DNA from: Verrucomicrobia bacterium GWC2_42_7
Lineage (GTDB): Bacteria > Verrucomicrobiota > Verrucomicrobiia > Opitutales > GWC2-42-7-A
Direction of reading: 5' to 3'
DNA length: 14,613 bases
NCBI GenBank assembly: GCA_001831055.1
Contig: MIDO01000101.1
Location: forward strand, 1 to 14,613
Shown here piece by piece: positions 1 to 11,464 of this stretch. The stretch's first letter is position 1, and the number at the start of each line of letters is the position of its first letter. The position numbers and the translations under genes were made by a program. The notes beneath the pieces are model-generated. The model worked only from the letters and a program-made list of their open reading frames with translations, did not search any database and was not told the origin of the DNA.

Positions 1-1704
1 CTTTTCGCGAAAAGAAGTGAAGAAATTCACTGCATTTCTCAACTATTGAGAGCCTATTGTCTATACGAAAAGGACGATGAATACGTCGTATTGGATGGCA
101 AAGTTGTTATCATCGACGAAAACACGGGCCGTGCCATGCCAGGAAGGCGTTGGAGCGAAGGACTCCACCAAGCGATCGAAGCCAAAGAGTGTGTCGCTAT
201 CGAAAAAGAGTCTAAGACCTACGCAACCATCACCATACAAAATTATTTCAGGTTGTATGAAAAGCTTGCAGGGATGACCGGTACCGCCGAAACAGAAGCT
301 TCAGAATTTTACGATATTTATAAGCTCAGTATCATCTGCATTCCAACAAATAAGCCGTGCATCCGTAAAGACATCGATGATGTCGTCTATAAGACACGTC
401 GGGAAAAGTACAATGCGGTCATTAAACACATCCAGGATGCTCACGATAAGGGTCAGCCTGTCTTGGTGGGAACTGCTTCGGTTGAGGCATCCGAAGTTTT
501 AAGTAAAATGCTAAAACGAGCAAATGTCCCCCACAGTGTCCTGAATGCGAAATTCCACGCAATGGAAGCAGACATCGTCGCGCGTGCAGGACAAAGAGGC
601 GCCGTGACCATCGCAACCAATATGGCCGGCCGTGGTACAGATATTAAGCTCGGTGAGGGTATTGCAGAACTCGGCGGGTTATTTGTTCTAGGAACCGAAC
701 GTCACGAATCGCGACGCATTGATCGCCAATTACGCGGTCGCTGTGCCCGTCAAGGAGATCCCGGTCTTACAAAGTTCTTCGTATCGATTGAAGACGATTT
801 GATGCGTCTGTTTGCAAGAGGCCGGATCGCCCAAATGCTCGAGAATTCACTCGAAGAAGGCGAAGAATTAACGCACCCCCTCTTGAACCGTTCCATCGAG
901 AATGCACAAAAGGCTGTAGAACAACAAAATTATGCCATCCGGAAGCGCCTATTGCAATATGACGACGTCCTAAATCGCCAACGCGAAGTCATTTACGGTA
1001 TCCGCAACGAGGCCATCCATAGTGAGGCTCCCCAAGTCCTTCTCTTCGACCTCATAAGAGAAGAATTGGATGTCCGCATCGAGTCATTCGATTCAAAATC
1101 CAAAGCACACGATTGGAATTCGGACGAAGCCAAAAGTTTTTTGAATTGGTTAAATGCCCAATTCCTCATAAACTTAAAAGCTGACCAACTTCAAAATCTA
1201 AAATTCCAAGAAGCTTCGGAGTATATTATACAAAAGATCAGAGACTCCTACAAATTGAAAGAAGAAGTGGAAAGTCCTGAAACGCTGATTGGTTTAGAAC
1301 GATACGTTATCATCCGCGCTATCGACAAGAACTGGCAGGACCACCTCACTGAAATGGAAGATTTGCGTCGAAGTGTGGGGCTACGCGGTTATGGCCAAAA
1401 GGACCCGCTCAACGAATACAAGAGCGAAGCCTATGTCTTTTTCGAAGAAATGATGGGTCGCATCCGTCAAGATGTTTGTTTTGGTCTATTCCGCTCCATC
1501 TCTAGCCTATCCAATCTCCAAGATATGCTGGCTCGTCTTTCAAAAAAAGTCCAAGAAGTCGGCCCCAATCAACCCGCATCGCCTACTCCTCCCGACATTA
1601 AACTACCCAAGATTTCTATCAGAACCGACCTTCCTAAAACCGGTAGAAATGATGACTGCCCCTGCGGAAGCGGTAAAAAATACAAAAAATGTTGCGGTAA
1701 GTAA
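1..1704 (+). CDS. secA: Protein translocase subunit SecA, C-terminal 567 residues (5' end outside window)
   Basis: ATPase motor that drives unfolded preproteins through SecYEG at the inner membrane. The frame is open from base 1, so the gene begins upstream and roughly the first third to two fifths is missing. Visible in order: the end of the first nucleotide-binding/preprotein-binding part (KRSEEIH, DENTGR), the KLAGMTGTA segment, NBD2 with [22 protein letters not shown] and the arginine-finger motif [14 protein letters not shown] (about residues 237-250 of the visible part), then the helical scaffold and wing ([23 protein letters not shown]). The tail ends in the SecB/lipid-binding zinc motif [13 protein letters not shown] (Cys553, 555, 564 and 565 of the visible part). 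The order and length match full-size SecA. Remembered resemblance is to PVC-group SecA. The TTG at 46 is internal, not the start. Hairpins begin 6 nt past the stop and may end its transcript. Confidence 0.98.
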
Positions 1705-1709
1705 GAAGA

Positions 1710-1752
1710 TTTGGGGAAACTGCTTTTGGTCACCCAAAAGCGTTCCCCCAAA
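1710..1752. repeat. Hairpin P1a, just after secA
   Basis: Inverted repeat with left arm 1710-1729 (TTTGGGGAAACTGCTTTTGG), 4-nt loop TCAC and right arm 1734-1752. Pairing is near perfect, with one or two bulges or mismatches. The same palindrome family (GGGGAAAC...CTTTT arms) recurs at 4547-4593 and 10519-10557 with different loops and compensating arm changes. It begins 6 nt after the secA stop, so it could act as a terminator or 3'-end stabiliser, but no T-run follows it. Confidence 0.8.
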
Positions 1753-1758
1753 CCCCAT

Positions 1759-1832
1759 CCGAAAAGGAGATACTTGCGCAGCAATAAAAATACCGAAGGG
1801 TATTTTATTCCTGCGCAAGTATCTCCTTTTGG
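1759..1832. repeat. Long hairpin, about 33-bp stem, downstream of secA
   Basis: Left arm 1759-1794 and right arm 1799-1832 pair almost throughout. The outer part CCGAAAAGGAGATACTTGCG pairs with CGCAAGTATCTCCTTTTGG (one bulged G). The inner part AATAAAAATACC pairs with GGTATTTTATT (one extra A). The loop is GAAG (1795-1798). The outer arms contain the module GCGCAA..A.CTCCTTTTCGGAAGGGG in both orientations; that module recurs near 4531, 6033 and 10490. The strong symmetric stem could terminate transcription on either strand. Confidence 0.8.
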
Positions 1833-1870
1833 AAGGAATTAAGAAAAACGATTTTTCGAGCAGGCGGGTT

Positions 1871-1994
1871 TTTTTGCCTAAAAAGAGACATCTTGTTGCA
1901 CCATCAAAAAATATTTTCTATTGATAATCAATTGAATGGGAAGTTTAATCAAACGGATAAAGCCCATCAAACGGACCCAAAGAAAGATTGCTTT
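1871..1994 (+). repeat. Dispersed repeat S, copy 1 (11-bp palindrome plus 9-nt tandem units)
   Basis: Similar to 4022-4143 in the same orientation. Shared landmarks are TAAAAAGAGACAT, then the palindrome TTGATaATCAA (1921-1931), then 9-nt units related to AATCAAACG (1947-1955, 1956-1964, 1965-1973), ending in GAAAGATTGCTT. Just before it, 1852-1869 carries a fragment (TTTTTCGAGCAGGCGG) of the larger repeat R in minus orientation. The element lies 110-230 nt upstream of the next start codon. No function is evident. The rest of the 398-nt gap is A+T-rich, with nothing else I can name. Confidence 0.6.
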
Positions 1995-2102
1995 TTTTTG
2001 CATGTAGTATAAAATACTCCGGAGCCGGCAGGTTATTGGAACCTTTCTTTTCCTTCAAAAACGAAGAGCTGGCGACATCAATAGTATTTAATTCTATTAT
2101 AT

Positions 2103-3806
2103 ATGAGAAAATTAAAGTTAGCGATTATCGGGCTATTAGCTTTTTATTCGGAATGTTCTCTATATGGAAGTAATGTTTATCAAACATTAGTTACCAATTG
2201 GGATCCTATCACTCGCCAGGTTGAAGCCATGAAGCCGGATGCGCGCAGAAATACCCTAATTGTTACAGACATTGATGAAACCTTGTACTTTGATCGATGT
2301 GCAAAAGCTCCTTCCTTGCAATGGGAGTTATTTAATTGGTTGAGAGATAATACGTGTGGTCTTATAGGTTGTACACAACGGGCGGGAAAAGAATGGGTTG
2401 AAGAGACACAGAAACATCTTTCGCGGGATAAATTTTATTTCACCTCATTTGAATTACCCACTGACTCCGCATTAAGAAATTTATATGTAAATGGTTGCAT
2501 ATTCGGCTCGGTGGACCCTAAGCTGCTGCAGCTAGCTCATTTTGTTCGTGACTTACAAAAGAAGGGAATCGTTATTCATAACCTCATTTTCGTAGACGAT
2601 AAAGAAGAAAATTTTAGAAACGCTGAACAGATTTTCAAAGACTTGGAATTAAATGTGTGGCTTTATGAGTTTAGGGGAAAAGCTACGAATGGTCGCTCCC
2701 ACCTTATTGTAGATCAAACTGAGTTTGAGGGAATTCCCTTAACAGAGGCGTTCAATCGTTGTTACCCTGATGGAGTAAAATTTACCGCAAAAGACCCGAA
2801 AAGAGAAGTTCCTGCTCCTGCCTATCCCCCCGCTGACACAAGGGATCTCCCTTACCATCCCAGCCAAGCATGGCAAGAAGCCTATACTAGCAAGCATCTA
2901 TTATTGGCACATCGTTGCACCTCTGGAGGCCAGTATCGAATAAAAAATCTATTTGTTGATATTCAAGGGCATCAGCCTAATGAAATCGTAGGGTCTGTTT
3001 TTTTAGAAAATATGATTTTTCTGCTAACCGCACGCTCTATGATAAGCACAAGCTTAACTGATACAATGGACTCTACAACGCTTAAAGGCGTTATTGACAG
3101 TCTGGGATTCGGAGTCTTGCTTAAGTCACCTATCGAATGCATCTATACTGCGAAACCAAATGATGCCTGTGTTCCTATGGAAAATGATAGCACCACACAA
3201 GAGCAATACATGGGTAATTTTATTACCAACGCTGTTCCACCTAAAGACATTTTTTTAAAAAAATTGAGTGAAATCTGTAAAAATAGTGGTATAAAAGGTC
3301 CTTGGGTTGAAAACCCTAAGATTCAGGAATATCTTAGCAAGAGAGGGTTTAGCCAGACTCAAATTGAAGCCTACGTCACTTACTTTCGTGGGGAAGGATT
3401 TTCGTCTCAAGGTATTTATGAATACTTTAAGAAGCCTTATCCCCAAGAAGATATTGAAGATGCAGCCAGAGAAAAAAGGTTTCGCAAGTGCTGCCATAAT
3501 GCGTTTGATACACCAGATGAAATAATTGAACAACTAAAAATCGTCCCATACAACGAAGTTACAGTTGTTCCTCGTTGTAAAAATCCAGCAAATGAAATCT
3601 CAATTGTAGGCCTTTTTTATGAGCCAAGCAACTTTCAATGGAAATTGGAAGAGGCAGGTCAATTTAAATTTAATCCAGAAACAATAGTCAGTGAACTTCA
3701 AGCTATTGCCAACAGAATGGGGGTCCCTCTTTATAACCTTGATGAGTTAAAGTTGCATCCAAGAATGTTAGATATCCCGCACTTCTCAAAAGGAAAAGCT
3801 AGATAA
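2103..3806 (+). CDS. Secreted DUF2608-type HAD-superfamily protein with a degenerate second HAD half
   Basis: A 567-residue protein with a short N-terminal signal sequence (MRKLKLAIIGLLAFYSECSLYG), so probably exported. The first half is HAD-like: motif I TDIDET (Asp56, Asp58), motif II LIGCTQR (Thr91) and motif IV FVDDKEEN (Asp165, Asp166). This fits a phosphatase-type site and resembles DUF2608 proteins. The second half seems to repeat the pattern weakly: LFVDIQG (283-289, with Gln at the second acidic position), LLTAR followed by T..L...G (307-335) and VGLFYEPSNF (502-511, no acidic pair). A helical, charged insertion lies between (about 380-470). No Shine-Dalgarno sequence precedes the ATG. 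Composition is visibly more A+T-rich than secA. No operon partner is seen. Substrate is unknown; the family label comes from motif recognition, not a search. Confidence 0.75.
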   Translation: MRKLKLAIIGLLAFYSECSLYGSNVYQTLVTNWDPITRQVEAMKPDARRNTLIVTDIDETLYFDRCAKAPSLQWELFNWLRDNTCGLIGCTQRAGKEWVEETQKHLSRDKFYFTSFELPTDSALRNLYVNGCIFGSVDPKLLQLAHFVRDLQKKGIVIHNLIFVDDKEENFRNAEQIFKDLELNVWLYEFRGKATNGRSHLIVDQTEFEGIPLTEAFNRCYPDGVKFTAKDPKREVPAPAYPPADTRDLPYHPSQAWQEAYTSKHLLLAHRCTSGGQYRIKNLFVDIQGHQPNEIVGSVFLENMIFLLTARSMISTSLTDTMDSTTLKGVIDSLGFGVLLKSPIECIYTAKPNDACVPMENDSTTQEQYMGNFITNAVPPKDIFLKKLSEICKNSGIKGPWVENPKIQEYLSKRGFSQTQIEAYVTYFRGEGFSSQGIYEYFKKPYPQEDIEDAAREKRFRKCCHNAFDTPDEIIEQLKIVPYNEVTVVPRCKNPANEISIVGLFYEPSNFQWKLEEAGQFKFNPETIVSELQAIANRMGVPLYNLDELKLHPRMLDIPHFSKGKAR

Positions 3807-3850
3807 AAATAAAGAAAGATCGAAGATTTTTTTCATGGGGAGCTGCAGCT

Positions 3851-3884
3851 ATAGCATAAGATATTAAAGAAGAGGCAAGATGCG
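3851..3884 (-). repeat. Dispersed repeat T, copy 1
   Basis: Bases 3851-3884 match the reverse complement of 11430-11464 at 31 of 34 positions (ATAGCATAA...ATTAAAGAAGAG.CAAGATGCG). Its ATAGCAT end can also pair with ATGCTATAT at about 3941-3949, giving an imperfect hairpin around 3845-3952. It lies about 45 nt after the stop of the HAD protein gene. Confidence 0.6.
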
Positions 3885-3898
3885 GAAGCCTTTTTTGT

Positions 3899-3950
3899 TC
3901 GCGCAAAGGGATTGATTTTTGTAACTATTTTTATTGCCCATGCTATATCT
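3899..3950 (+). repeat. Dispersed repeat U, copy 1
   Basis: Similar in the same orientation to 5972-6020. Both read CGCGnAAGGGATT...TTGTAAC followed by TTA.TG.CCCATGCT.TA. The match is imperfect (several substitutions). The right end can fold back on repeat T at 3851. No open frame with credible protein character is present here. Confidence 0.45.
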
Positions 3951-4021
3951 TTTGAGGTGAGCCGCAAAAACGCCTCGACTGTTAATACATTTCACTATAA
4001 TAATTTCCACTATAAAAGCTA

Positions 4022-4143
4022 TTTTTGTTTAAAAAGAGACATTTTTTGCTTTTTGGGGAAAAACGAGACGTTGATGATCAATGGGATGGAGATTTTAATC
4101 AAACAGATCAAATAGATCAAACGTATCAAACGGAACATTGCTT
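4022..4143 (+). repeat. Dispersed repeat S, copy 2, with four 9-nt tandem units
   Basis: Second copy of the element at 1871-1994. It has TAAAAAGAGACAT, the palindrome TTGATgATCAA (4071-4081) and a clean run of four 9-nt units: AATCAAACA (4097), GATCAAATA (4106), GATCAAACG (4115) and TATCAAACG (4124). It ends GAACATTGCTT. The palindrome and the 9-nt period are shared with copy 1, while the spacer between palindrome and tandem run has diverged. Confidence 0.6.
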
Positions 4144-4161
4144 CCATATGTTATAATAGAT

Positions 4162-4452
4162 AGAAAGAAGTTATTTCAATTTTTGAGTTTGTTGGTGCAG
4201 AAAGAAGTTATTTTAAGTTTCGAGTGTGTTGGACTACGCATTCGTGCTCAGTCACGTACGTATGTACGCTCCTTTGCACTTAGCTTGTCCCCCTGCTGGA
4301 AAGCTTAAACTAGCATCTTTCTGGGGATTATGGGAACCGTGTTCGCCTTTGTACGCCTGCTCGAAAAAACTTGAGCTAACATCTTTCTGCGGATTATGGA
4401 ATGGGAGCAAAAATCCACATTCCTACTCAAAAATTGAACTGACTTTTTTCTA
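4162..4452 (+). repeat. Large hairpin repeat R, copy 1 (composite, nested)
   Basis: The central unit 4198-4323 is bounded by arms CAGAAAGAAGTTATTTTAAG (4198-4217) and CTTAAACTAGCATCTTTCTG (4304-4323), which pair. Between them is a conserved core with TGTTGGACTACG, CAGTCACGTACGTATGTACG (including the small stem CGTAC-gtat-GTACG at 4255-4268), GCTCC and CTTGTCC. To the right are further right-half pieces (GCCTGCTCGAAAAAACTTGAGCTAAC). The outermost arms, about 4162-4186 and 4428-4452, also pair imperfectly. The whole reads as nested or successive insertions of one element. An in-frame stretch inside it shows no protein character and was not called. Confidence 0.8.
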
Positions 4453-4489
4453 CTGATTCCTAGAAATTTGGAAGAACAAAAAAATCTTT

Positions 4490-4527
4490 TTCGCGAAAGA
4501 AAAATCGATAGATTTTGCTTTCGCGAA
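4490..4527. repeat. Hairpin P2a upstream of the methyltransferase gene
   Basis: Arms TTCGCGAAAGAAAAATC (4490-4506) and GATTTTGCTTTCGCGAA (4511-4527) with the 4-nt loop GATA and one mismatch. The same palindrome recurs at 5941-5976, so copies lie on both sides of the gene. It is followed at 4531 by the module CTCCTTTTCGGAAGGGG. Confidence 0.8.
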
Positions 4528-4546
4528 GAAACTCCTTTTCGGAAGG

Positions 4547-4593
4547 GGTTTGGGGAAACCTATTTTGGGGGACCAAAATGGGTTTCCCCAACC
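4547..4593. repeat. Hairpin P1b, 27 nt before the methyltransferase start
   Basis: Left arm 4547-4568 and right arm 4573-4593, both of the type GGTT(T)GGGGAAACC.ATTTTGG, with the 4-nt loop GGGA, one bulge and one G-T type mismatch. It is related to 1710-1752 and 10519-10557. It ends 27 nt before the ATG at 4621, so if transcribed with that gene it would sit in the 5' leader. No recognisable promoter lies between it and the ATG, so transcription probably starts further upstream. Confidence 0.8.
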
Positions 4594-4620
4594 ATTACCA
4601 TTTGAAACACTTAAACATTT

Positions 4621-5841
4621 ATGAAAGAACAAAAAACACGAGATACATTTAGAGCGGGACCATTTGAGTACCATCAGGAGATTGAGTTGACCGTAGACAC
4701 GTTGACGAATCTGGGGGTTGGCTTAGGTCGTGTAGACGGCTGGGTTGTCATGGTGCCGTTTTCTTTACCTGGGGAACGGGTAAGGGCGCGCATTTTCCGA
4801 AATCACAAGAACTACTCCGAAGCGGATTTAATCGAAGTGACGGAACCATCGCCCCATAGGGTACAGCCAAAGTGCGACCTTTTTGGGAATTGCGGAGGCT
4901 GTCAATATCAACACCTCTCTTATGAGCAGCAATTAAAGTGGAAGCAGCAGCAGGTTAAAGAGATTTTTGCTCACTTGGCGGGTATTGAAACAGCTGTGAA
5001 TCCTCCCTTATCGAGCGAGCAGACTTTTCATTATCGGTCGAAAATTACACCTCATTTTAACAAGCCAACCAATGAGGTAGATATTGGCTTCTTAAAACAA
5101 GGACAACGACACGCACTTGTAGATGTCGAACAATGTGTTATTGCAACAGAGCGCATCAATTCCGTCCTGCCCTGCGAAAGGCAAGCCCTCAAATCGAATC
5201 CGCAAAAATTCAAACGCGGAGGAACCCTGCTTTTAAGAGATACCATGGATGGCATTATGACAAACCCCAAGGCACCGTGTCGTGAAAAGATAGGGGAGTG
5301 GGTTTTCCATTTTACCGCTGGTGAGTTTTTTCAAAACAATCCCTTCGTGTTGCCCAAAATGATAGATTATGTCGTCAAGCAGGCCAGTGCAGGCGGAGCA
5401 GAATACTTGGTCGACGCTTATTGCGGGGTTGGCGTCTTCGCCATTGCAGCTCACTCCTTATTTAAAGAAGTGGTCGGTATCGAAGTTAATTCCGAAGGCA
5501 TCAAATGGGCCCACAAAAATGCCCTCTCAAATCACGCAACTAATTGCTCTTTTATAGAGGGTAACGCAGAAAACATTTTTACCAATATCGCCGTCCCCGG
5601 AAATAAAACCGCCATTATTATAGATCCCCCAAGAAAGGGATGCGACGAAGCCTTTATTCAACAGCTGCTAGCCTTTGCTCCCGCACGGATTGTTTATGTC
5701 TCCTGCGCCCCAGATACTCAGGCCCGCGACCTCAAAACAATCCTCCAATCTCATCCCTACAAACTCGTCGAAGTCCAACCCATCGACCTCTTCCCCCAAA
5801 CCCGCCATATCGAGAACGTTTGTGTATTAGAAAGGGTATAG
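4621..5841 (+). CDS. rlmD: 23S rRNA uracil-C5 methyltransferase, TrmA/RlmD (RumA) family
   Basis: SAM-dependent C5-methylation of a uridine, most likely in 23S rRNA (U1939 by E. coli numbering). The 406 residues fit the family. An N-terminal TRAM domain spans about 18-75. Four iron-sulfur cysteines follow (Cys85, 91 and 94 in CDLFGNCGGC, and Cys172), as in RlmD. The Rossmann methyltransferase part has SAM motif DAYCGVGVFAI (265-275), FFQNN (236-240) and IDPPRKG (334-340). The catalytic nucleophile is Cys362 in YVSCAPDT, with the general base Glu398 in HIENV. All key residues are present, so it should be active. The target base (RlmD, RlmC or TrmA-like) cannot be fixed from sequence alone. There is no Shine-Dalgarno sequence before the ATG. 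The gene stands alone between two arrays of inverted repeats. Confidence 0.93.
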   Translation: MKEQKTRDTFRAGPFEYHQEIELTVDTLTNLGVGLGRVDGWVVMVPFSLPGERVRARIFRNHKNYSEADLIEVTEPSPHRVQPKCDLFGNCGGCQYQHLSYEQQLKWKQQQVKEIFAHLAGIETAVNPPLSSEQTFHYRSKITPHFNKPTNEVDIGFLKQGQRHALVDVEQCVIATERINSVLPCERQALKSNPQKFKRGGTLLLRDTMDGIMTNPKAPCREKIGEWVFHFTAGEFFQNNPFVLPKMIDYVVKQASAGGAEYLVDAYCGVGVFAIAAHSLFKEVVGIEVNSEGIKWAHKNALSNHATNCSFIEGNAENIFTNIAVPGNKTAIIIDPPRKGCDEAFIQQLLAFAPARIVYVSCAPDTQARDLKTILQSHPYKLVEVQPIDLFPQTRHIENVCVLERV

Positions 5842-5878
5842 TAGGGTAAGAAGAATTTCAGTTGGGTAGGGACAAGGT

Positions 5879-5918
5879 GCGAAACCCTTTCTTTTCGCGA
5901 GAAAAGAAAGGTTTTCGC
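5879..5918. repeat. Hairpin P3a, 38 nt after the methyltransferase stop
   Basis: Arms GCGAAACCCTTTCTTTTC (5879-5896) and GAAAAGAAAGGTTTTCGC (5901-5918) with loop GCGA and one mismatch in 18 bp. The copy at 11392-11431 pairs perfectly with loop TTGT. Its position just after a gene fits a transcription terminator or mRNA 3' stabiliser, but no T-tract follows. If transcribed, the loop GCGA is of the GNRA type. Confidence 0.8.
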
Positions 5919-5940
5919 GCTTTCCAAAGAAAAGCGAATA

Positions 5941-5976
5941 TCGCGAAAGGAAAATCTAACGATTTTTCTTTCGCGA
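5941..5976. repeat. Hairpin P2b
   Basis: Arms TCGCGAAAGGAAAATC (5941-5956) and GATTTTTCTTTCGCGA (5961-5976) with loop TAAC and one mismatch. Same family as 4490-4527. Repeat U copy 2 begins at its right end (5972-6020). Confidence 0.8.
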
Positions 5977-6020
5977 AGGGATTAAAGTTGTAACAACCTT
6001 AATGACCCATGCTGTAGAAT
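5972..6020 (+). repeat. Dispersed repeat U, copy 2
   Basis: Imperfect direct copy of 3899-3950: CGCGAAGGGATT...TTGTAAC, then TTAATGACCCATGCTGTA. It is followed at 6033-6058 by the module GCGCAACGATCTCCTTTTCG, also seen near 1813, 4531 and 10490. Confidence 0.45.
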
Positions 6021-6060
6021 AGGAAATTTTGGCGCAACGATCTCCTTTTCGGATGGGGCA

Positions 6061-6326
6061 AAAGATGTTAGCTCAAGTTTTTTTCGAGCAGGCGGACGAG
6101 GGTGAATCTTTTTTGCTCCCTTCCCATAATACAGCAGAAAGATGTTAGTTTAAGCTTTTGAGAAGGCGGACAAGGGGAGTGCGATGGAGCCGTACAATAC
6201 GTACGTGACTGAGCACGAATCCGTAGTCCAATGCACTTAAAACTTAAACTAACTTCTTTCTGCAGTACGTGACTGAGGGCGAGTCTGATGTCCAACGAAC
6301 TCGAAACTAAAAATAACTTCTCTTTG
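6061..6326 (-). repeat. Large hairpin repeat R, copy 2 (inverted relative to copy 1)
   Basis: The central unit 6135-6262 has arms CAGAAAGATGTTAGTTTAAG (6135-6154) and CTTAAACTAACTTCTTTCTG (6243-6262), which pair with very few mismatches. The core on the minus strand repeats TTGGACTACGGATTCGTGCT, CAGTCACGTACGTAT, GGCTCC and CTTGTCCGCC from copy 1. An extra right-half piece lies at 6064-6110 and an extra left-half piece at 6263-6326, the latter ending directly against the stop codon of the HtrA-like gene. With 4198-4403 it forms an inverted pair of about 200 bp around the methyltransferase gene. Confidence 0.8.
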
Positions 6327-7414
6327 CTAGGGCTTTTCCTTAGAAGGATGAACGGGGGCATCCGTGCGGGGTGCAACGTGGATGGAAAATTCTTTTTCTT
6401 GTTTTCCTCTAAGGACTTGGACAGCGAGGTTGTTCCCGGGTTTTGAGAAGAAGATGGCGTTGATGACGTCGTCGATTTTGGAGATGGGGAATCGACCGAT
6501 TTTTAGGAGCACATCCCCTTCTTTGAGTCCAGCCTTGTCTGCAGGCGAGTTGGAAGAGACTTTTAGGACGTAGCGGCCAGAAGTATCTGTTTCGATGCCG
6601 ATATAGGCATAACTTACTTTTTCGGAAAAAAGGATATCATCGCGGATGCGACGAATAGCGCGTGCTGGAATAATGAAAGAAGACCGTGTTTCCTGAATTG
6701 AAACCGACATCATTCCGACGAAATTTCCTAGCAAGTCAAAGATCGGGGCGCCTCCATCTGCCCCTTCACATGGGAGGGAGGAACGCATGTAAGTCGTTGG
6801 CCATATCTTGGATAAGGATGGGCAAACGGTATTGTAATCCGACAAAAACCCAAAGGAAGGAGAAATATTGAGATTTAACTTATTGCTGATGCAGAGCAGG
6901 AATGTTCCAATGGGAGGAAGCTCAACGGAATCTCCGAGGTCAATGAAGGAGAGATTTTCCGGTGTCTTCTTTAGCTTGAGGATGGCCATGTTCGTTGTGG
7001 GGTCTATCCCTAAAACATCAGCCACAAAAGGTAAATTGTCATGTTCGATCCATACAAGGTTGCGATCGGCAATGGTATTGGCATCGGTTACGATGTGCCC
7101 GTCACGGCTTATAAGAAACCCTGTCCCTATCTTGAGGGATGTGTTTGCTTCCTTTTTCGATTCATCAAGCTGCTCTGAAATGCTTGCGGAAGCAAAGACT
7201 TTGACCGTACTTCTGCGTTTTTGCTGGATTAAATCGATGAAGCGATTCTGGAATACTAAAAAGAAGTCAGACGCTTCTGGATTTGATTTAGGCGCAGGCA
7301 GGGCATCCCCTGCTAATAGCGGCGTTAAAAGGGTAAAAAAAAACTAGAAAGCGCCAAAAGCCTCTTTTTTAGAGGTCTCCAGTTTTTAACAAAGAATCCG
7401 TTATGCTTGCTCAC
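6327..7414 (-). CDS. HtrA/DegP-like pseudoprotease with PDZ domain; apparent frameshift in signal peptide
   Basis: Trypsin-fold (S1C) domain plus one C-terminal PDZ, probably periplasmic. The fold landmarks GTGFLISRDGHIVT, GIDPTTNMAILKL and GADGGAPIFD align with HtrA, but the catalytic triad is gone: His is Asn (codon 7079-7077), Asp is Asn (6992-6990) and Ser is Asp (6758-6756). The PDZ domain (YIGIE to about VAPR, 6609-6366) looks normal. The body frame is open only to a TAG at 7346-7344 and has no start codon before a GTG at 7025 inside the protease domain. In the neighbouring frame a GTG at 7414 leads into KKRLLALSSFF, which would complete a signal peptide with FTLLTPLLAGDALPAP if one T were added to the nine-T run at 7343-7335, giving 362 residues. 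It is probably the last gene of the sigma/anti-sigma unit, 115 nt after it. A pseudogene is possible, but the long intact body argues against simple decay. Confidence 0.82.
7335..7343 (-). other. Nine-T homopolymer joining signal-peptide frame to protease-domain frame
   Basis: The coding (minus) strand reads CTAG followed by nine T and ACCC. Upstream in one frame is KKRLLALSS; downstream in the next frame is TLLTPLLAGDALPAP. Ten (or seven) T would fuse them in frame. Runs of nine or more A or T are known sites of transcriptional slippage, of phase variation by replication slippage, and of sequencing error. Which applies here cannot be decided from this window. Confidence 0.65.
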
Positions 7415-7529
7415 AGACAAAGTAAAATGTTTTATGCTGTTTTGAAAAACCTAATTTTCTTTAAATCCAACACTGGTACCTAGAAGGATTCCTAGCCCTT
7501 TCATCTTTCTTTTTCCCACGCACTAGCGA

Positions 7530-7985
7530 TTAGTACGCGGTATTGAATTGAAAGGAAATTGTTGGGGACGAAGGAGAAAGGACCATTCCTGACATTAAAA
7601 AGAAATCCGAAGACGTTGAAACGCCGACTTTTTGGCAAATAAGCTCTTTTTGGGTGCTTGGTGATTCAAGAATTTTGCGAATTTTATCTGATGCAAAATC
7701 ATCCTGAGCAACACAATGCAGGGGTGTGAAAACAGCCGAGTAAAAAGAAAATGACAAAACAAATACCGCTGCCGTCGAAAGAGATATTGCTGGATTCTTG
7801 AAGAAAGCAACGATCTCTCTTGCCGCGTGCTTAAAAATGCTTTCCTTTCTTATCGCCATCCTGAACATCTTTTGTTTCAGTTCCTCATCGAATCGGTTCC
7901 AAAACTCTTGAGATGGTTTCTCTAGTCGCTTAATACGCAACAAATTGCTTAATTGATCAAATTGATCCTGGGATTTTAACGACAT
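7530..7985 (-). CDS. Probable membrane-anchored anti-sigma factor
   Basis: A 151-residue protein with a charged cytoplasmic N-terminal part (1-65), one hydrophobic segment (about 66-87, AISLSTAAVFVLSFSFYSAVF) and a short outer tail (88-151). Its start lies 6 nt after the stop of the ECF sigma gene, so the two are almost certainly co-transcribed. Position and topology match RseA/MucA-type anti-sigma factors that hold an ECF sigma factor at the inner membrane. The N-terminal pattern RIKRLEKPSQEFWNRFDEEL recalls small proteins encoded next to RpoE-like genes in Verrucomicrobiota (from memory). The zinc-binding HxxxCxxC motif of many anti-sigma factors is absent. The role rests on context and topology, not on a recognised domain; the tail (Cys91, Cys117) has no known motif. 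Confidence 0.6.
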   Translation of the reverse strand: MSLKSQDQFDQLSNLLRIKRLEKPSQEFWNRFDEELKQKMFRMAIRKESIFKHAAREIVAFFKNPAISLSTAAVFVLSFSFYSAVFTPLHCVAQDDFASDKIRKILESPSTQKELICQKVGVSTSSDFFLMSGMVLSPSSPTISFQFNTAY

Positions 7986-7991
7986 GTTTTT

Positions 7992-8621
7992 TTAATGGAT
8001 ATAGTCTTTTAGCTTACTTTGAAGTTCGGATTTTGCATAGTGGAGACGTGACCGTACCGTGCCTTCTGAGCACTTCATAATGACTGCAATCTCCTGATGA
8101 CTCAAACCCTCAACTTCAAAAAGAACAATAACAGTCCTATGTTTAGGAGACAGACTCTGAAGCGCTTCGTTCAATTTTTCTTGTAATTCTTTTAAGAAAG
8201 TTGGCTTATCTGATGTCATTTTCGACGCCAAGATATTACCTAACTCATTGTGGCTCACTTCTTCCGTGAGGGTCTCCAAGCTAAAAAATCGACGAAGTCT
8301 ATTTTTTCTTAAGAAATTAATAGCAGTATTTACGGCAATACGATAAATCCAGGTGTAAAAAGCGGAATTTCCCTTAAAACGATGGATTGAACGAAAGGCT
8401 CGAATAAAAGCATCTTGCGCGATATCCGATGCATCTTCTTTGTTAGAAGTAATGTTATAAACGACAGAAAATAAGCGTTCGCGGTATTTAACAACCAGCT
8501 GATCAAAGGCTGCAACGTCCCCAGCTCTAACTCGCTCAACTAAAGCAAAATCCTCACTCCTCTCCGGGACAATGACCTCGGAACTTGTAAAAGTAGAAGC
8601 TATGGACTTAAAAACGCTCAT
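7992..8621 (-). CDS. rpoE: ECF (RpoE-like) RNA polymerase sigma factor
   Basis: Group 4 sigma factor of 209 residues. Region 2 covers about 38-108, with the core-binding and -10 recognition segment DASDIAQDAFIRAFRSIHRF (63-82) followed by WIYRIAVNTAINFLRK. Region 4 covers about 143-205, with a helix-turn-helix (LSHQEIAVIMKCSEGTVRSRL, 173-193) for -35 recognition. Regions 1.1 and 3 are absent, as is usual for ECF factors; the N-terminal extension of about 24 residues is slightly long. It is the first gene of a unit with a probable anti-sigma factor and an HtrA-like protein, which suggests an envelope-stress regulon. Autoregulation is likely by analogy, but I could not find a convincing ECF-type promoter in the upstream gap. 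There is no Shine-Dalgarno sequence before the ATG. Confidence 0.95.
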   Translation of the reverse strand: MSVFKSIASTFTSSEVIVPERSEDFALVERVRAGDVAAFDQLVVKYRERLFSVVYNITSNKEDASDIAQDAFIRAFRSIHRFKGNSAFYTWIYRIAVNTAINFLRKNRLRRFFSLETLTEEVSHNELGNILASKMTSDKPTFLKELQEKLNEALQSLSPKHRTVIVLFEVEGLSHQEIAVIMKCSEGTVRSRLHYAKSELQSKLKDYIH

Positions 8622-8926
8622 AAAAAGAATCGCCCCGATAAGACCTTAAACGCTCACCTTCAAAAAGCCAAATTCCCCCTAGCTGGAGTTCTTGTTTAAA
8701 CAATATCAATAAATAACTAACCCTACCCAAATAGCAAGATTTTTTTATGGGAACCTCTTTCTGCGCGTTATTGAAATAAAGTTCACCTTGTCCGCCTCCT
8801 CGAAATGTTGAACTTTGCAGCAACTACATGCGACGTCGAGTTTCGAATGCGTTGGGTCTCGGGCCCACACTTAGCTATTTGCAGAATACGCTTCCCTTTT
8901 CGGGAAGATGTGTGTATAAATAAAGT
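8622..8926. other. Divergent intergenic region between rpoE-like and PilC/GspF genes
   Basis: These 305 nt must hold the promoters for both divergent genes. A small hairpin CTTCCC-ttttc-GGGAAG lies at 8891-8907, and a TATAAA box at 8915-8920 sits only 7 nt before the PilC/GspF ATG, with no matching -35 hexamer. On the rpoE side the sequence is A+T-rich and I see no clear -10/-35 pair. Fragments of repeat R occupy 8781-8855. Confidence 0.5.
8781..8855 (+). repeat. Repeat R, copy 4 (partial, rearranged)
   Basis: The segment 8781-8824 (GTTCACCTTGTCCGCC, then CTCGAAATGTTGAACTTTGC, then AGCAAC) matches the right half of the copy at 10091-10243. The stretch 8832-8852 (GACGTCGAGTTTCGAATGCG then TTGG) resembles the left half. 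Right half precedes left half, so this is a remnant or a junction of two truncated copies. Confidence 0.5.
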
Positions 8927-10084
8927 ATGGTAATGTTAAATCCTCAGGGCTCATCCGGGAAAAAGGAACAGCCCCATCAAAAAGTAACGACAGATCAAAA
9001 ATGGCAGGTAGCCCAAAACCAGCCAAGCCCCTTAAAAAGAGGGAAAAAAATCCCGCTAAATGAGTTGGCTCTATTCACGCAACAAGTTTCGTCTATGCTA
9101 AAAGCAGGGTTGCCCATTATATCCTCCATAGACGCTTTCCTTGAAGAACTTAAGTCACCAATATTCAAGAGAATCTTAACTCAAATTCGAAATGAAGTCG
9201 TCAAAGGAACGTCCCTTTCTGATGCATTAAAACAGTTTCCTGGATCCTTTCCTGTTATATTTATAAGCATGATTGAGGCCGGTGAAGCGTCTGGTTCGCT
9301 TGCAGAAGTTATGGAAAATCTTGCCCTCTACTTTGATAAATCCTTAAAATTGGTTAAAAAAGTCAAGAGCGCCATGACCTATCCGGCGGTTATCTTGTCC
9401 ATTGCTATCGTGTTAGTTGTCAGCATTCTTGTATTTATTGTTCCTGTTTTTACAGGCATGTTTGCAAGCCTTGGAGCGACACTTCCCTTGCCCACACGTA
9501 TCCTTATTGCGGTCAGCAACTGCTTGGGCCATAACTTTCACTGGGTTCTTCTAGGCGGAGGACTCCTCTTTTGGTGGTTAAAGACGTTCCTTAACACCGC
9601 ACAAGGGAAACACATAAGGGATGTCATTGTTAGAAAAATCCCCCTATTTGGCGAAATGTCCATTAAATCTAATTCCGCTAGATTTTGCAGAACCTATTCT
9701 GTCCTTCTCAGTAGTGGCGTTCCCATTTTAAAAGCTATAGAAATCTGTACTAATATCACCGAAAACACCTTTTTGATAAAAGTTTGTAAGCAAATCTCCG
9801 AAGGTGTAAAGTCTGGTAAACAATTGTCCGACATTTTGTCTACCAATACCTACTTTCCCTCTCTTGTCCTGCAAATGGTTAAAGCGGGAGAAAAAGCAGG
9901 TAACGTGGAAAAAATGATCCTCAGTGCGGCAGATACCTTTGATAACGATGTCAATAACTTAGTATCTGCCCTCACCTCACTCATTGAACCTGCTCTTATC
10001 TGCTTCCTCGGGGTAACTATGGGTGGTATCGTCGTCGCTGTCTTCCTCCCTATCTTCAACCTATCTTCTGTTGTTGGCGGCTAA
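8927..10084 (+). CDS. PilC/GspF inner-membrane platform protein of type IV pilus or type II secretion
   Basis: Polytopic inner-membrane protein that organises pilus or pseudopilus assembly by linking the cytoplasmic ATPase to the pilin machinery. The 385 residues contain two T2SSF repeats, about 46-173 and 250-374. Each has the family helix motif (FTQQVSSMLKAGLPI and CRTYSVLLSSGVPI) and a GE signature (IEAGEASGSL, 116-125; VKAGEKAGNV, 318-327). Three hydrophobic segments lie at about 151-174, 200-218 and 350-376. The polar N-terminal 45 residues are typical of PilC. The ATG at 8927 is chosen; an ATG two codons later (8933) is equally possible. No ATPase, pilin or secretin gene adjoins it, so PilC and GspF cannot be told apart. 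Repeat R copy 3 begins 6 nt after its stop. Confidence 0.93.
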   Translation: MVMLNPQGSSGKKEQPHQKVTTDQKWQVAQNQPSPLKRGKKIPLNELALFTQQVSSMLKAGLPIISSIDAFLEELKSPIFKRILTQIRNEVVKGTSLSDALKQFPGSFPVIFISMIEAGEASGSLAEVMENLALYFDKSLKLVKKVKSAMTYPAVILSIAIVLVVSILVFIVPVFTGMFASLGATLPLPTRILIAVSNCLGHNFHWVLLGGGLLFWWLKTFLNTAQGKHIRDVIVRKIPLFGEMSIKSNSARFCRTYSVLLSSGVPILKAIEICTNITENTFLIKVCKQISEGVKSGKQLSDILSTNTYFPSLVLQMVKAGEKAGNVEKMILSAADTFDNDVNNLVSALTSLIEPALICFLGVTMGGIVVAVFLPIFNLSSVVGG

Positions 10085-10090
10085 GAGGCT

Positions 10091-10243
10091 TTTTAGAAGG
10101 TTGCGAAAGCATGAGTTCAGCATTTTGAGTGTGTTGGACGTCGGATTCACATTCGGTCACGTACGTATGTACGCTCCCTCATGTTCACCTTGTCCGCTTT
10201 CTCAAAAAGTTGAACTCATGCTTTCGGCAACCTTCTTAGAAAA
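10091..10243 (+). repeat. Large hairpin repeat R, copy 3 (about 40-bp arms)
   Basis: Arms 10091-10129 and 10201-10243 pair with few mismatches (AGAAGGTTGCGAAAGCATGA and GTTCA on the left; TGAACTCATGCTTTCGGCAA and CCTTCT on the right). The arm sequence differs completely from copies 1 and 2, but the core is shared: TGTTGGAC, GTCACGTACGTATGTACGCTC and TTCACCTTGTCCGC. It lies directly after the PilC/GspF gene. Confidence 0.85.
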
Positions 10244-10453
10244 ACCAACGATTGGGCCTTGCATATTTTAATGTGAACCGCAAAGAACCTCACCTCTCAA
10301 TATAATTAACTACACCTTAAAAAGAAAAGGGTTTGGATTTATCAATAAATAAAATTTGGATTTACTATATACCTGGAAAGGCGAATTTTGGATAATGGAA
10401 GTGAGTTATCCATTTTATTCTTAAAGAGTTATTGTTTTTAATGGGTTGTCTCT
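10244..10453. other. A+T-rich spacer without recognised genes
   Basis: No credible coding region. It holds a direct repeat TTGGATTTA (10333-10341 and 10356-10364) and a weak inverted pair TGGATAA...TTATCCA around 10388-10411. No function assigned. Confidence 0.35.
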
Positions 10454-10495
10454 TTGCGCTGGAATAAATTCCTTGTGGAATTTATTCCAGCGCAA
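10454..10495. repeat. Perfect 19-bp hairpin with TTGT loop
   Basis: Left arm TTGCGCTGGAATAAATTCC (10454-10472), loop TTGT, right arm GGAATTTATTCCAGCGCAA (10477-10495), with no mismatch. Directly after it comes the module GCGCAACGACCTCCTTTTCG (10490-10509) that accompanies other hairpins in this window, then hairpin P1c. Confidence 0.85.
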
Positions 10496-10518
10496 CGACC
10501 TCCTTTTCGGAAGGGGTG

Positions 10519-10557
10519 CGGGGAAACGCTTTTAGGCGACTAAAAGCAGTTTCCCCG
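10519..10557. repeat. Hairpin P1c upstream of the transaldolase-family gene
   Basis: Arms CGGGGAAACGCTTTTAG (10519-10535) and CTAAAAGCAGTTTCCCCG (10540-10557) with loop GCGA and one bulged base. Same family as 1710-1752 and 4547-4593. A short T-run (10561-10566) follows nearby, so on the plus strand it is the most terminator-like of the set. Confidence 0.8.
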
Positions 10558-10629
10558 AAATTTTTTAAAGATAAAAAAGACATAAAATAAGATTGCGATT
10601 GGAGGCCTAACGTTGGAGAATTTTCACAT

Positions 10630-11349
10630 ATGGTTAAAATTAGCGACTTAGGAATCGAGTTATATGCGGATGGAGCTGATTACAAAGGTATTATTGAGCT
10701 CAATCAAAAAAGTTTTATCAAAGGAATTACGACAAATCCATCTTTGATGAAAAAAGCAGGAATTGCTGATTATGAGGGGTTTGCGAAAGAGGTCCTAAAA
10801 GTGGTTACTGCTAAGCCCATCTCTTTCGAGGTCTTTTCGGACGACCTGCAAGAAATGAAACGCCAAGCGAGGAAAATCCAAAGTTGGCAAAAGAACGTCT
10901 TTGTCAAAATCCCCGTGTGTAATACCAAGGGAGAGTCTACCGCGGGTATTGTTCAGGAATTGTCTCATGAGGGAATCCAACTCAATGTAACAGCGCTATT
11001 CACGCTGGAACAAATAAAAGATATGATTGCTGCCCTGTCTCCCGATACAAGCAGCATCTTATCCGTGTTTGCAGGACGCACTTCAGAAACAGGCGTAGAT
11101 CCCATGCCGATCATCAAAACAGCAAAATCTTTGATCGCAACAAAACCAAAAATTAAGTTACTTTGGGCCTGCGTCAGGGAAGTTTATAATATTATCCAAG
11201 CCCAGGAGTCGGGTTGCGATATCATAACTGTTCCACACGATATCTTGGCAAAAGCCGAACTCACCCTAGGAAAATCTCTCGAGGATATGACCCTCGAAGC
11301 CGTCCGCGCTTTTGACAAAGATGCAAGATCCGTAGGCTTTAAGCTGTAG
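10630..11349 (+). CDS. Transaldolase / fructose-6-phosphate aldolase family protein
   Basis: Class I aldolase of the small transaldolase family, which either transfers a dihydroxyacetone unit in the pentose phosphate pathway or cleaves fructose 6-phosphate. The 239 residues are slightly longer than the typical 215-220 of this subfamily. Motifs: YADGAD (12-17), the phosphate/substrate loop GITTNPSLM (32-40), the Schiff-base lysine Lys93 in NVFVKIPV, NVTALFT (119-125) and the SVFAGR strand (145-150). The C-terminal ITVPHDIL segment is also typical. Transaldolase and fructose-6-phosphate aldolase activity cannot be separated by eye. The ATG is preceded by GGAG (10615-10618) at 11 nt, the nearest thing to a Shine-Dalgarno sequence in this window. 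It stands alone, convergent with cheB across a perfect hairpin. Confidence 0.88.
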   Translation: MVKISDLGIELYADGADYKGIIELNQKSFIKGITTNPSLMKKAGIADYEGFAKEVLKVVTAKPISFEVFSDDLQEMKRQARKIQSWQKNVFVKIPVCNTKGESTAGIVQELSHEGIQLNVTALFTLEQIKDMIAALSPDTSSILSVFAGRTSETGVDPMPIIKTAKSLIATKPKIKLLWACVREVYNIIQAQESGCDIITVPHDILAKAELTLGKSLEDMTLEAVRAFDKDARSVGFKL

Positions 11350-11391
11350 CAAAAGATATATAGTATAGTTAATAGCATTGAGAATAGATAC

Positions 11392-11431
11392 GCGAAAACC
11401 TTTCTTTTCTTGTGAAAAGAAAGGTTTTCGC
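11392..11431. terminator. Perfect hairpin P3b between convergent genes, putative bidirectional terminator
   Basis: Arms GCGAAAACCTTTCTTTTC (11392-11409) and GAAAAGAAAGGTTTTCGC (11414-11431) form an 18-bp perfect stem with loop TTGT. It sits 42 nt after the transaldolase-family stop and 33 nt beyond the cheB stop, the usual place for a shared terminator. No long T-run follows on either strand, so classical intrinsic termination is not assured. The same palindrome recurs at 5879-5918. Confidence 0.55.
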
Positions 11432-11464
11432 ATCTTGTCTCTTCTTTAATGTTTTATGCTATAT
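11430..11464 (+). repeat. Dispersed repeat T, copy 2
   Basis: GCATCTTGTCTCTTCTTTAA...TTATGCTATAT is the reverse complement of 3851-3884 with about three differences. It occupies exactly the space between hairpin P3b and the cheB stop codon at 11465-11467. Confidence 0.6.

Follow-up and report, generated by a model that had tools for sequence, protein, structure and literature searches.

The window analysed here, a stretch of 14,613 nucleotides from Verrucomicrobia bacterium GWC2_42_7, contains nine long hairpins with uniform loops, and the question arises of what kind of element they represent. We consider it very likely that they are internal modules of short, high-copy, MITE-like repeats, of which family 3 would be moved by an IS630-type transposase. 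The stem of one hairpin type, A, may be re-paired by template switching, a preferred but unproven mechanism. Copy number, shared ends, empty sites with one TA and an IS630 element with the same ends form the established basis of this reading. At least three repeat families, mostly intergenic, would insert into and beside one another and thus build up mosaics (Table 1). The hairpins are thereby reinterpreted as mobile load; 8.8% of the DNA in the sample consists of stretches with at least three self-matches, a fraction that includes a few repeats inside genes.

Hairpins of the window and their loop lengths

All nine predicted hairpins proved to be real. Folded alone as DNA they reached z-scores of -5.4 to -12.3, with 0 of 200 shuffles as good in each case, and all of them (9/9) formed a 4-nt loop. 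None (0/9) lies within any gene called in the window, where genes were called by dicodon score and at least the ORF 7530-7985 was missed. The grouping into three hairpin families, made by eye and from the direct repeats D1, D4 and D14, was upheld: hairpins 1759, 4490, 5941 and 10454 belong to family A, 1710, 4547 and 10519 to family B, and 5879 and 11392 to family D. A gap-free scan of the window recovered seven of the nine, six with loop 4; hairpin 1762-1830 was read with a loop of 13 because of a bulge, and 1710-1752 and 10519-10557, whose pairing requires a bulge, were missed. Each of five dinucleotide shuffles of the window yielded 0 hairpins, compared to the seven observed.

The same scan was applied to a sample of 356 kb (40 contigs and the window), corresponding to 27.5% of the assembly, which consists of 133 contigs and is 64% complete. 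Here 209 hairpins were detected, compared to 1-3 in each of five shuffles and three in one earlier shuffle. Hairpin density was 0.586 per kb, versus 0.061 in other bacteria (18 contigs, 165 kb).

The constancy of loop 4 is an effect of the window. The original prediction had named a sharp genome-wide peak at loop length 4 as support; 69 of the 209 hairpins in the sample have such a loop, 38 have loop 3 and 27 loop 6. Four is the mode, but a broad distribution, which the prediction itself had named as evidence against it, was found in part. The other outcome named there, equally many hairpins in shuffled sequence, was not observed. The published modal loop length for bacteria is also 4 (PMC13155455). 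By type, 4-nt loops were found in 44 of 60 B hairpins and in 27 of 71 A hairpins, with 3 nt in 26 of 71 (a minimum loop of 3 was imposed for both), and in 17 of 52 D hairpins, with 6 nt in 19 of 52 (no minimum imposed). Constant loop length as the signature of a formation mechanism is thus unsupported in the sample, yet the B loops are mostly of the GNRA type (40/59).

Table 1. Hairpins and repeat elements located in the window
Feature	Position	Strand	Basis and remarks
Hairpin B of a family-1 copy (A-linker-B)	1710..1752	-	Loop TCAC on + strand, GTGA on linker strand; fold; in register with other copies
Family-1 linker CTCCTTTTCGGATGGG	1754..1769	-	Exact linker match
Hairpin A, same copy as B 1710..1752	1757..1834	-	Inverted linker-like sequence extends far side; fold
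Family-3-type element, TATAGC...CTATA bounds, 150 bp	3850..3999		Right end loosely TIR-like (up to 4 substitutions); left end by eye
Family-2 repeat, ends approximate	4190..4335		Core GGAGCGTACATACGTACGTGAC on - strand; direct repeats
Hairpin A	4490..4527	+	Scan and fold
Family-1 linker CTCCTTTTCGGAAGGG	4532..4547	+	Begins 4 nt past hairpin A 4490..4527
Hairpin B	4547..4593	+	End 27 nt upstream of rlmD start codon; fold
Hairpin D	5879..5918	+	Fold
A-type hairpin adjoining hairpin D 5879..5918	5941..5976	+	Fold and direct repeats; putative element without defined ends
Lone family-1 linker, no hairpins detected beside it	6042..6057	+	Exact linker match
Family-2 repeat region	6061..6316		Inverted arms 6130-6158 and 6239-6267
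Family-2 repeat	10104..10226		Inverted arms 10104-10129 and 10201-10226
Hairpin A	10454..10495	+	Scan and fold
Family-1 linker CTCCTTTTCGGAAGGG	10500..10515	+	Linker match
Hairpin B	10519..10557	+	End 72 nt upstream of transaldolase start codon; fold
Family-3 element TATAG...CTATA, 100 bp	11364..11463	+	Left TIR 11364-11388 exact; right end loosely TIR-like, by eye; outside the scored TIR pairs
Hairpin D within family-3 element 11364..11463	11392..11431	+	Scan and fold

Repeat families and an IS630 element with shared ends

In the elements of family 3, hairpin D lies inside 25-bp TIRs (TATAGTTAAT...GAGAATNGA). With up to 3 mismatches the genome contains 180 TIR matches and the control 0; in the sample there are 68 matches versus one in a Markov control. 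Fourteen TIR-bounded elements of 142-312 bp were found in the sample, most of the 68 matches falling outside such pairs. The longest complete ATG ORF in these 14 encodes 53 aa, and five of them overlap called genes; the overlap amounts to 5-15 bases in four cases and to 103 in the fifth. Several family-3 copies also contain an A-type hairpin.

To count as an empty site, a paralogous match had to run across the junction, have TA there and show no gap 5 nt or less away from it. One element nested in a family-1 A hairpin (L049:5450-5636) gave 8 such matches out of 10, and one nested in a family-2 repeat (L058:11761-11950) 33 out of 40; for two elements nested in hairpin-D loops the values were 12/33 (L096:637-823) and 5/59 (L097:554-740). 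These four paralogous empty sites with one TA demonstrate a target-site duplication, and they do so for family 3 only. Among the 14 bounded elements of the sample two empty sites were convincing, one was a poor match, one a self-match, and for ten none was found; of four further chosen cases one had no empty site, and the IS630 copy described below showed TA at the junction in 0 of 3 matches, so that no target duplication is demonstrated for the IS itself. Short, bounded by TIRs, free of long ORFs and flanked by a duplicated TA, the family-3 elements are MITEs.

A transposase domain (PF13358, E 6e-29) was identified at C18:529-933, between family-3 TIRs at 446-470 and 1354-1378. The same element matches the IS630 model NF033545 with 102.1 bits (cut-off 100) and HTH_Tnp_IS630 with 28.8 (cut-off 21.3), and its ends (C18:446-1378) resemble two family-3 ends with 90% over 29 bp. 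A second IS630-like end carries the family-3 TIR, with 77% over 90 bp. The C18 copy is fragmented across different frames, with a middle ORF that matched no family, and may therefore be dead. Judged by these matches, family 3 is a MITE which shares its ends with an IS630 element of the same genome, an assignment that applies to family 3 and not to family 1. We infer that the IS630 transposase moves the short family-3 copies; as a member of the IS630/Tc1-mariner group it would insert them at TA and thereby duplicate the TA. An IS630-MITE pair is thus added for a lineage without one in the literature searched, which contained no account of repeats of this kind in Verrucomicrobia and left most subscription journals uncovered. 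With up to 2 mismatches the family-3 TIR occurred in 0 of 102 other genomes of the same taxonomic order, and viral contigs contained neither the exact TIR nor the exact family-1 linker.

Family 1 is characterized by the linker CTCCTTTTCGGANGGG, flanked by hairpins A and B, with 129 exact copies in the genome and 0 in the reversed control. Both hairpins were present at 51 of 90 sample sites picked by the linker alone. Some copies possess TGGACACCTCTAAAAAC ends: 14 TIR pairs were detected in the sample, 11 of which enclose the linker and define nine distinct copies of 178-217 bp, while each of three Markov controls gave 0 pairs. Single ends are weakly specific (125 matches versus 37 in shuffled and 51-59 in Markov sequences), and of the 90 copies eight have both ends, 17 one and 65 neither. 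From these features family 1 looks like a second MITE family; neither a transposase nor a target was found for it. The exact linker was found in one of 51 other genomes and in five of 287 of a phylum draw; five of these six stray sites were checked, and none of the five has a hairpin within ~120 nt.

The family-3 TIR was rejected as a boundary of family 1, as it was found on both sides in 0 of 90 copies (left 2, right 2), and IS630 is therefore not a direct explanation of hairpins A and B. Transposases with an rve domain were rejected as parents as well: the three matches were assigned to the IS30 type and, as far as one tested copy of two IS6-like ones shows, to the IS6 type, and the fetched stretches had no TGGACACC-like ends. 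The original suggestion that the hairpins are products of a hairpin-forming mobile element accordingly stands in one part, in that they lie within MITE-like TIR elements, in family 3 with TA and IS630-type ends; a hairpin-forming activity found no support.

An origin of the repeats in assembly or binning can practically be dismissed. The assembly is fragmented and incomplete, and 18 of the 90 family-1 copies have a gene on one side and the end of the contig on the other, but copies are located within contigs next to ordinary genes (SecA, RlmD, transaldolase), and they have different flanks and divergent sequences. Of the transaldolase matches listed, the first five comprise four MAG loci of Verrucomicrobia type (51-57%, two belonging to one bin) and one locus with a Patescibacteria label.

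The paired stem of hairpin A and selection on RNA or DNA

For the most part the hairpins are a known kind of thing; the odd part is the stem of hairpin A, which varies between copies and yet is paired. A clear A stem (at least 12 of 16 positions paired) was present in 66 of 88 copies, compared to 12 of 2000 random sites. In these 66 copies the arms pair to 0.92 within a copy and 0.44 between copies, the former value being inflated because the placement of the arms maximized pairing and copies with fewer than 12 pairs were dropped. Among 41 copies with the foot TTGCGC the 5-bp middle block occurs in 24 forms, with 188 of 205 cells paired. Inner positions 13-15 are conserved and positions 7-11 variable, the foot (1-6) being the selection rule. 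B stems in register (23/90) show little covariation, with pairing of 0.77 within and 0.72 between copies.

Arm-to-arm template switching is the preferred, if unproven, explanation of this paired variation: copying from one arm to the other during replication would re-pair a mutated A stem. A selection for the single-strand hairpin, in RNA or DNA, is the alternative, to which we assign a considerable but clearly less than even chance. It agrees with the A loops, which on the linker strand are of the G..A type in 25 of 65 cases and of the T..C type in three of 65 (6% expected for each), with the GNRA loops of hairpin B, both loop types being stable in RNA and DNA, and with the conserved inner positions beside variable ones. 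On the linker strand, however, the mismatches G.T and A.C are equally frequent (26 each), and in the RNA sense of the neighboring genes six G-U stand against 14 A-C (29 copies). The lack of a G-U excess argues against selection at the RNA level, and DNA-level selection is the alternative to template switching. Rather unlikely, and put forward tentatively, is the idea that the A stem is free in sequence and bound in structure, either as a natural record of arm rewriting or with its middle block serving as a tag, different in each copy, that a DNA-binding protein recognizes. If true, a single genome would hold many records of palindrome arms rewritten by template switching in bacteria. Given a sister strain, the many hairpins which derive from few ancestors within one genome can be used to test selection against template switching in stem pairing.

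Selection on RNA structure would also be expected if the hairpins were intrinsic terminators or stabilizers of mRNA 3' ends, as originally proposed, and as their main role this is improbable. Of 67 family-1 copies placed between genes, 20 lie in convergent gaps (14.2 kb), 35 in tandem gaps (43.5 kb) and 12 in divergent gaps (18.6 kb), an enrichment per kb in convergent gaps which would suit terminators; the tandem copies, however, have no orientation bias (18 versus 17), the 12 divergent copies do not fit, and two B hairpins of the window lie upstream of start codons, by 27 and 72 nt. TTTT follows within 12 nt past hairpin B in 29 of 83 cases, compared to 398 of 2264 random intergenic places, but is partly the family's own end GCAGTTTTTAGAGG, as seen by eye. 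Hairpin D at 11392-11431 supplies, on its two strands, the two best terminator-like sites of a promoter/terminator scan, although such sites are overall at chance level (15 versus 15.3). The GNRA loops would suit a role in RNA, the unfavored G-U pairs do not, and Rfam gave 0 matches in the window at the gathering threshold. Hairpin B may act as a terminator as a side effect.

Comparison with known systems

Correia/NEMIS elements start with TATAG. In the available excerpts of the literature these elements of Neisseria have TIRs close in length to those of family 3 (24 bp) and TA at the termini; of their two forms, 107 and 155 bp long, one has 50 bp more in its interior (PMC2229807). The comparison is one of architecture, and the excerpt names no transposase with the same ends, unlike the situation in family 3.

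A REP/BIME identity of the hairpins, with a RAYT (Y1) transposase as their mover, is in our view very improbable, although they are short, high-copy, intergenic palindromes in a paired arrangement. The strand opposite to the linker reads GGAG, the tag of REP elements, near the foot of hairpin A, as seen in the sequence. Against this, Y1_Tnp (PF01797) had 0 matches in the genome, with a control positive in five of 14 genomes, an absence that is weak in a 64%-complete assembly. REP/BIME with RAYT are, as excerpted, paired palindromes in intergenic DNA as well (PMC3733652), but the TIRs of the present repeats are long, and the empty sites of family 3 carry TA.

IS1272, an inverted-repeat-replacing insertion, is comparable in that it targets inverted-repeat structures; according to the excerpt IS1272 makes no target duplication, in contrast to the TA found here (PMC5678879). 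In pneumococcus, BOX repeats are modular, as are those described here, and SPRITE elements have a similar stem of 18 bp (PMC3049150, in excerpt). SPRITE elements are described as terminator-like with short TIRs, whereas in this genome TTTT follows hairpin B in some cases (29 of 83).

RUP of Streptococcus pneumoniae, with 107 bp and 108 copies, corresponds to family 3 in that its TIRs resemble those of an IS630 element (IS630-Spn1) and that it inserts at TA (PMC2229807, in excerpt). Its TIR is listed with 9 bp, compared to 25 bp here, and several near-perfect internal hairpins are a feature of the present elements. The likeness to RUP is one of architecture. It extends to the arrangement of the repeats, since RUP, as far as the excerpt goes, also forms clusters with other repeat families and shows nested insertions (PMC3049150).

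Abundance and loop length of the hairpins

The assembly comprises 1.30 Mb in 133 contigs with a completeness of 64%, and the window is its contig 101. For the hairpin census, 40 contigs were taken irrespective of their content and combined with the window, giving a sample of 356,413 bases (27.5% of the assembly). A gap-free scan of this sample yielded 209 hairpins with a score of at least 12, compared to one to three in each of five shuffled versions, so the excess over shuffled sequence implied by the original prediction was confirmed. The density amounts to 0.586 hairpins per kb versus 0.061 per kb in 165 kb (18 contigs) of other bacteria. When folded individually as DNA, all nine hairpins described for the window close on a loop of 4 nt, with z-scores between -5.4 and -12.3; for each of them, 200 shuffles yielded no equally good fold. 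The hairpins are thus a real and strong feature.

A constant loop of 4 nt does not hold for the sample: this length is the most frequent one (69 of 209), and loops of 3 nt (38) and 6 nt (27) are also common. According to a survey of 118,019 genomes (PMC13155455), four is likewise the most frequent spacer length in inverted repeats of bacteria, and the rule seen in the window is therefore a widespread preference combined with some luck. With all families pooled, 79 of the 107 loops of 3–4 nt in the sample begin and end with G..A or T..C, strand as read, whereas about 12% would be expected.

Repeat families carrying the hairpins

The hairpins are modules of repeats. At three places of the window, hairpin A is followed by 4 nt, the 16-nt linker CTCCTTTTCGGANGGG, a few nucleotides and hairpin B (family 1). 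The genome contains 129 exact copies of the linker and none of its reversed form. Among 90 sites of the sample, selected by the linker only with up to two substitutions allowed, 71 have hairpin A, 60 hairpin B and 51 both. Some copies are bounded by TGGACACCTCTAAAAAC and its inverse. The sample contains 14 pairs of these ends, eleven of them with the linker inside, representing nine distinct copies of 178–217 bp; each of three Markov controls contains none. The single end motif is weakly specific (125 matches versus 37 in shuffled and 51–59 in Markov sequence), and both ends are present at eight linker sites, one at 17 and neither at 65. The sample contains 24 copies of family 2, whose core is GGAGCGTACATACGTACGTGAC; judged by eye, five of them lie between linker-like sequence and a family-1 hairpin B.

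Outside called genes lie 85 of the 90 linker sites. The 67 sites between two genes are distributed over tandem (35), convergent (20) and divergent (12) gaps, and in tandem gaps both orientations are equally frequent (18 versus 17). Since copies occur in divergent gaps and show no orientation bias in tandem ones, this distribution suggests tolerated insertions rather than the terminators considered originally. T tracts do follow hairpin B more often than background (29 of 83 versus 17.6%), an excess to which the family's own end contributes in part by its TTTTT. Coordinates of individual elements and of further genes seen are listed in the table; Sel1-type and leucine-rich repeat proteins are seen in host-associated bacteria.

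Elements and genes observed in the window (coordinates without prefix) and in other stretches (C18 and L numbers)
Feature	Position	Strand	Remarks
Family-3 element with hairpin D inside	11364-11463		100 bp; right end loosely TIR-like, by eye
Family-3 ends flanking the DDE_3 match	C18:446-470 and 1354-1378		933-bp element
Second IS630-like end	L098:1887-1976		77% alike over 90 bp; contig end; directly after an IS30 match, whose IS30-type transposase gene spans two frames
Transposase pair	L052:1859-2684 and L059:3954-4784		87% alike; L052 copy matches IS6 model
Further repeat, ATCAAACGGAT-like words	1921-1993 and 4071-4143		75% alike; outside the three families
HtrA/DegP-like ORF	6327-7350	-	starts at 7025, profile already at residue 98; N-terminal part may lie in another frame or be lost
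567-aa protein	2103-3806	+	no NCBIfam match
Sel1-type and leucine-rich repeat protein genes, presumably, by appearance	L045:2714-3765, L058:10840-11521, L099:2276-3220

Target site and probable transposase of family 3

In family 3, a 25-bp end TATAGTTAAT...GAGAATNGA and its inverse enclose hairpin D and then a linker, followed by an A-type hairpin in several of the copies. The family-3 end has 180 matches in the genome with up to three mismatches (control 0) and 68 in the sample by profile (control 1), and 14 bounded elements were obtained from the sample. For each of these, the left and right flanks were fused with one TA between them, and the product was compared with the sample. Convincing empty sites resulted for two of the 14: one of these elements sits at a TA in a family-1 A hairpin and the other in a family-2 repeat, with TA at the junction and no gap near it in 8 of 10 and 33 of 40 spanning matches, respectively. 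The other twelve gave one poor match, one self match and ten times no empty site in the sample. Four additional cases were picked from the TIR list: two inside the loop of a D hairpin had TA junctions in 12 of 33 and 5 of 59 matches, the IS630 copy, which adjoins family-2 sequence, in 0 of 3, and the fourth showed no empty site in the comparison. Because paralogous empty sites carry a single TA at the junction, these sequences indicate that family 3, to which we limit the claim given the IS630 result, inserts at TA and duplicates it.

The only DDE_3 match of the genome (E 6e-29) is flanked by family-3 ends. One piece of this transposase lies just above the cut-off of the IS630 transposase model (102.1 versus 100) and another matches HTH_Tnp_IS630 (28.8 versus 21.3); the ORF between the two has no NCBIfam match. 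The Sleeping Beauty transposase was the sole solved structure found at E ≤0.001 (E 4e-5). As judged from domains and shared ends, this IS630 element is likely the mover of family 3. The copy may be dead or frameshifted, because its pieces lie in different frames. For family 1 no mover was found: family-3 ends on both sides were present in 0 of 90 copies, and the stretches surrounding the genome's three rve matches showed no family-1 ends. The origin from a hairpin-forming mobile element that was proposed originally comes close, in that the hairpins are modules of MITE-like repeats, of which family 3 shows TA empty sites. No RAYT was found in the genome, at 64% completeness of the assembly.

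Pairing of the A stems and relation to known systems

Sufficient upstream sequence was available for 88 linker copies, and in 66 of them 12 or more of the 16 outer pairs of the A stem are formed, compared to 12 of 2000 random sites. In these 66, the arms pair at 92% of positions within a copy, a value inflated by placing the arms for best pairing and dropping 22 copies, versus 44% between copies, which partly reflects register and type differences among subfamilies; the 5' arms are 44% identical. In 41 of 89 copies (sample and extra loci), selected for TTGCGC at positions 1–6, positions 13–15 are nearly constant, and positions 7–11 occur in 24 forms with 188 of 205 cells paired and 30 copies fully paired. 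Pairing declines slightly with linker divergence (Spearman -0.18, p 0.10), from 29 of 37 copies without substitutions to 27 of 33 with one and 10 of 18 with two. B stems show little covariation, 23 of 90 being placeable in register.

Mismatches of the A stems on the linker strand are equally often G.T and A.C (26 each; others 32), and along the RNA of neighbouring genes G-U is not preferred (6 versus 14, 29 copies). Both observations speak for a DNA-level cause of the pairing rather than upkeep through RNA function, and mRNA stabilisation, as proposed originally, is accordingly disfavored as the main role. For RNA hairpins, a published proposal attributes both origin and upkeep to template switching between the arms (PMC8794818). 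Against a purely mutational account of the A stems, the loops on the linker strand suggest that the folded strand is under some constraint: A loops are G..A in 25 of 65 cases versus T..C in three, and B loops of the sample are GNRA with a free second base in 40 of 59 (GGGA 20, GTGA 10, GCGA 9, GGAA 1).

For the most part, the feature consists of new MITE-like families, one of which is of the IS630 type, and these families are comparable to RUP (PMC2229807, PMC3049150).
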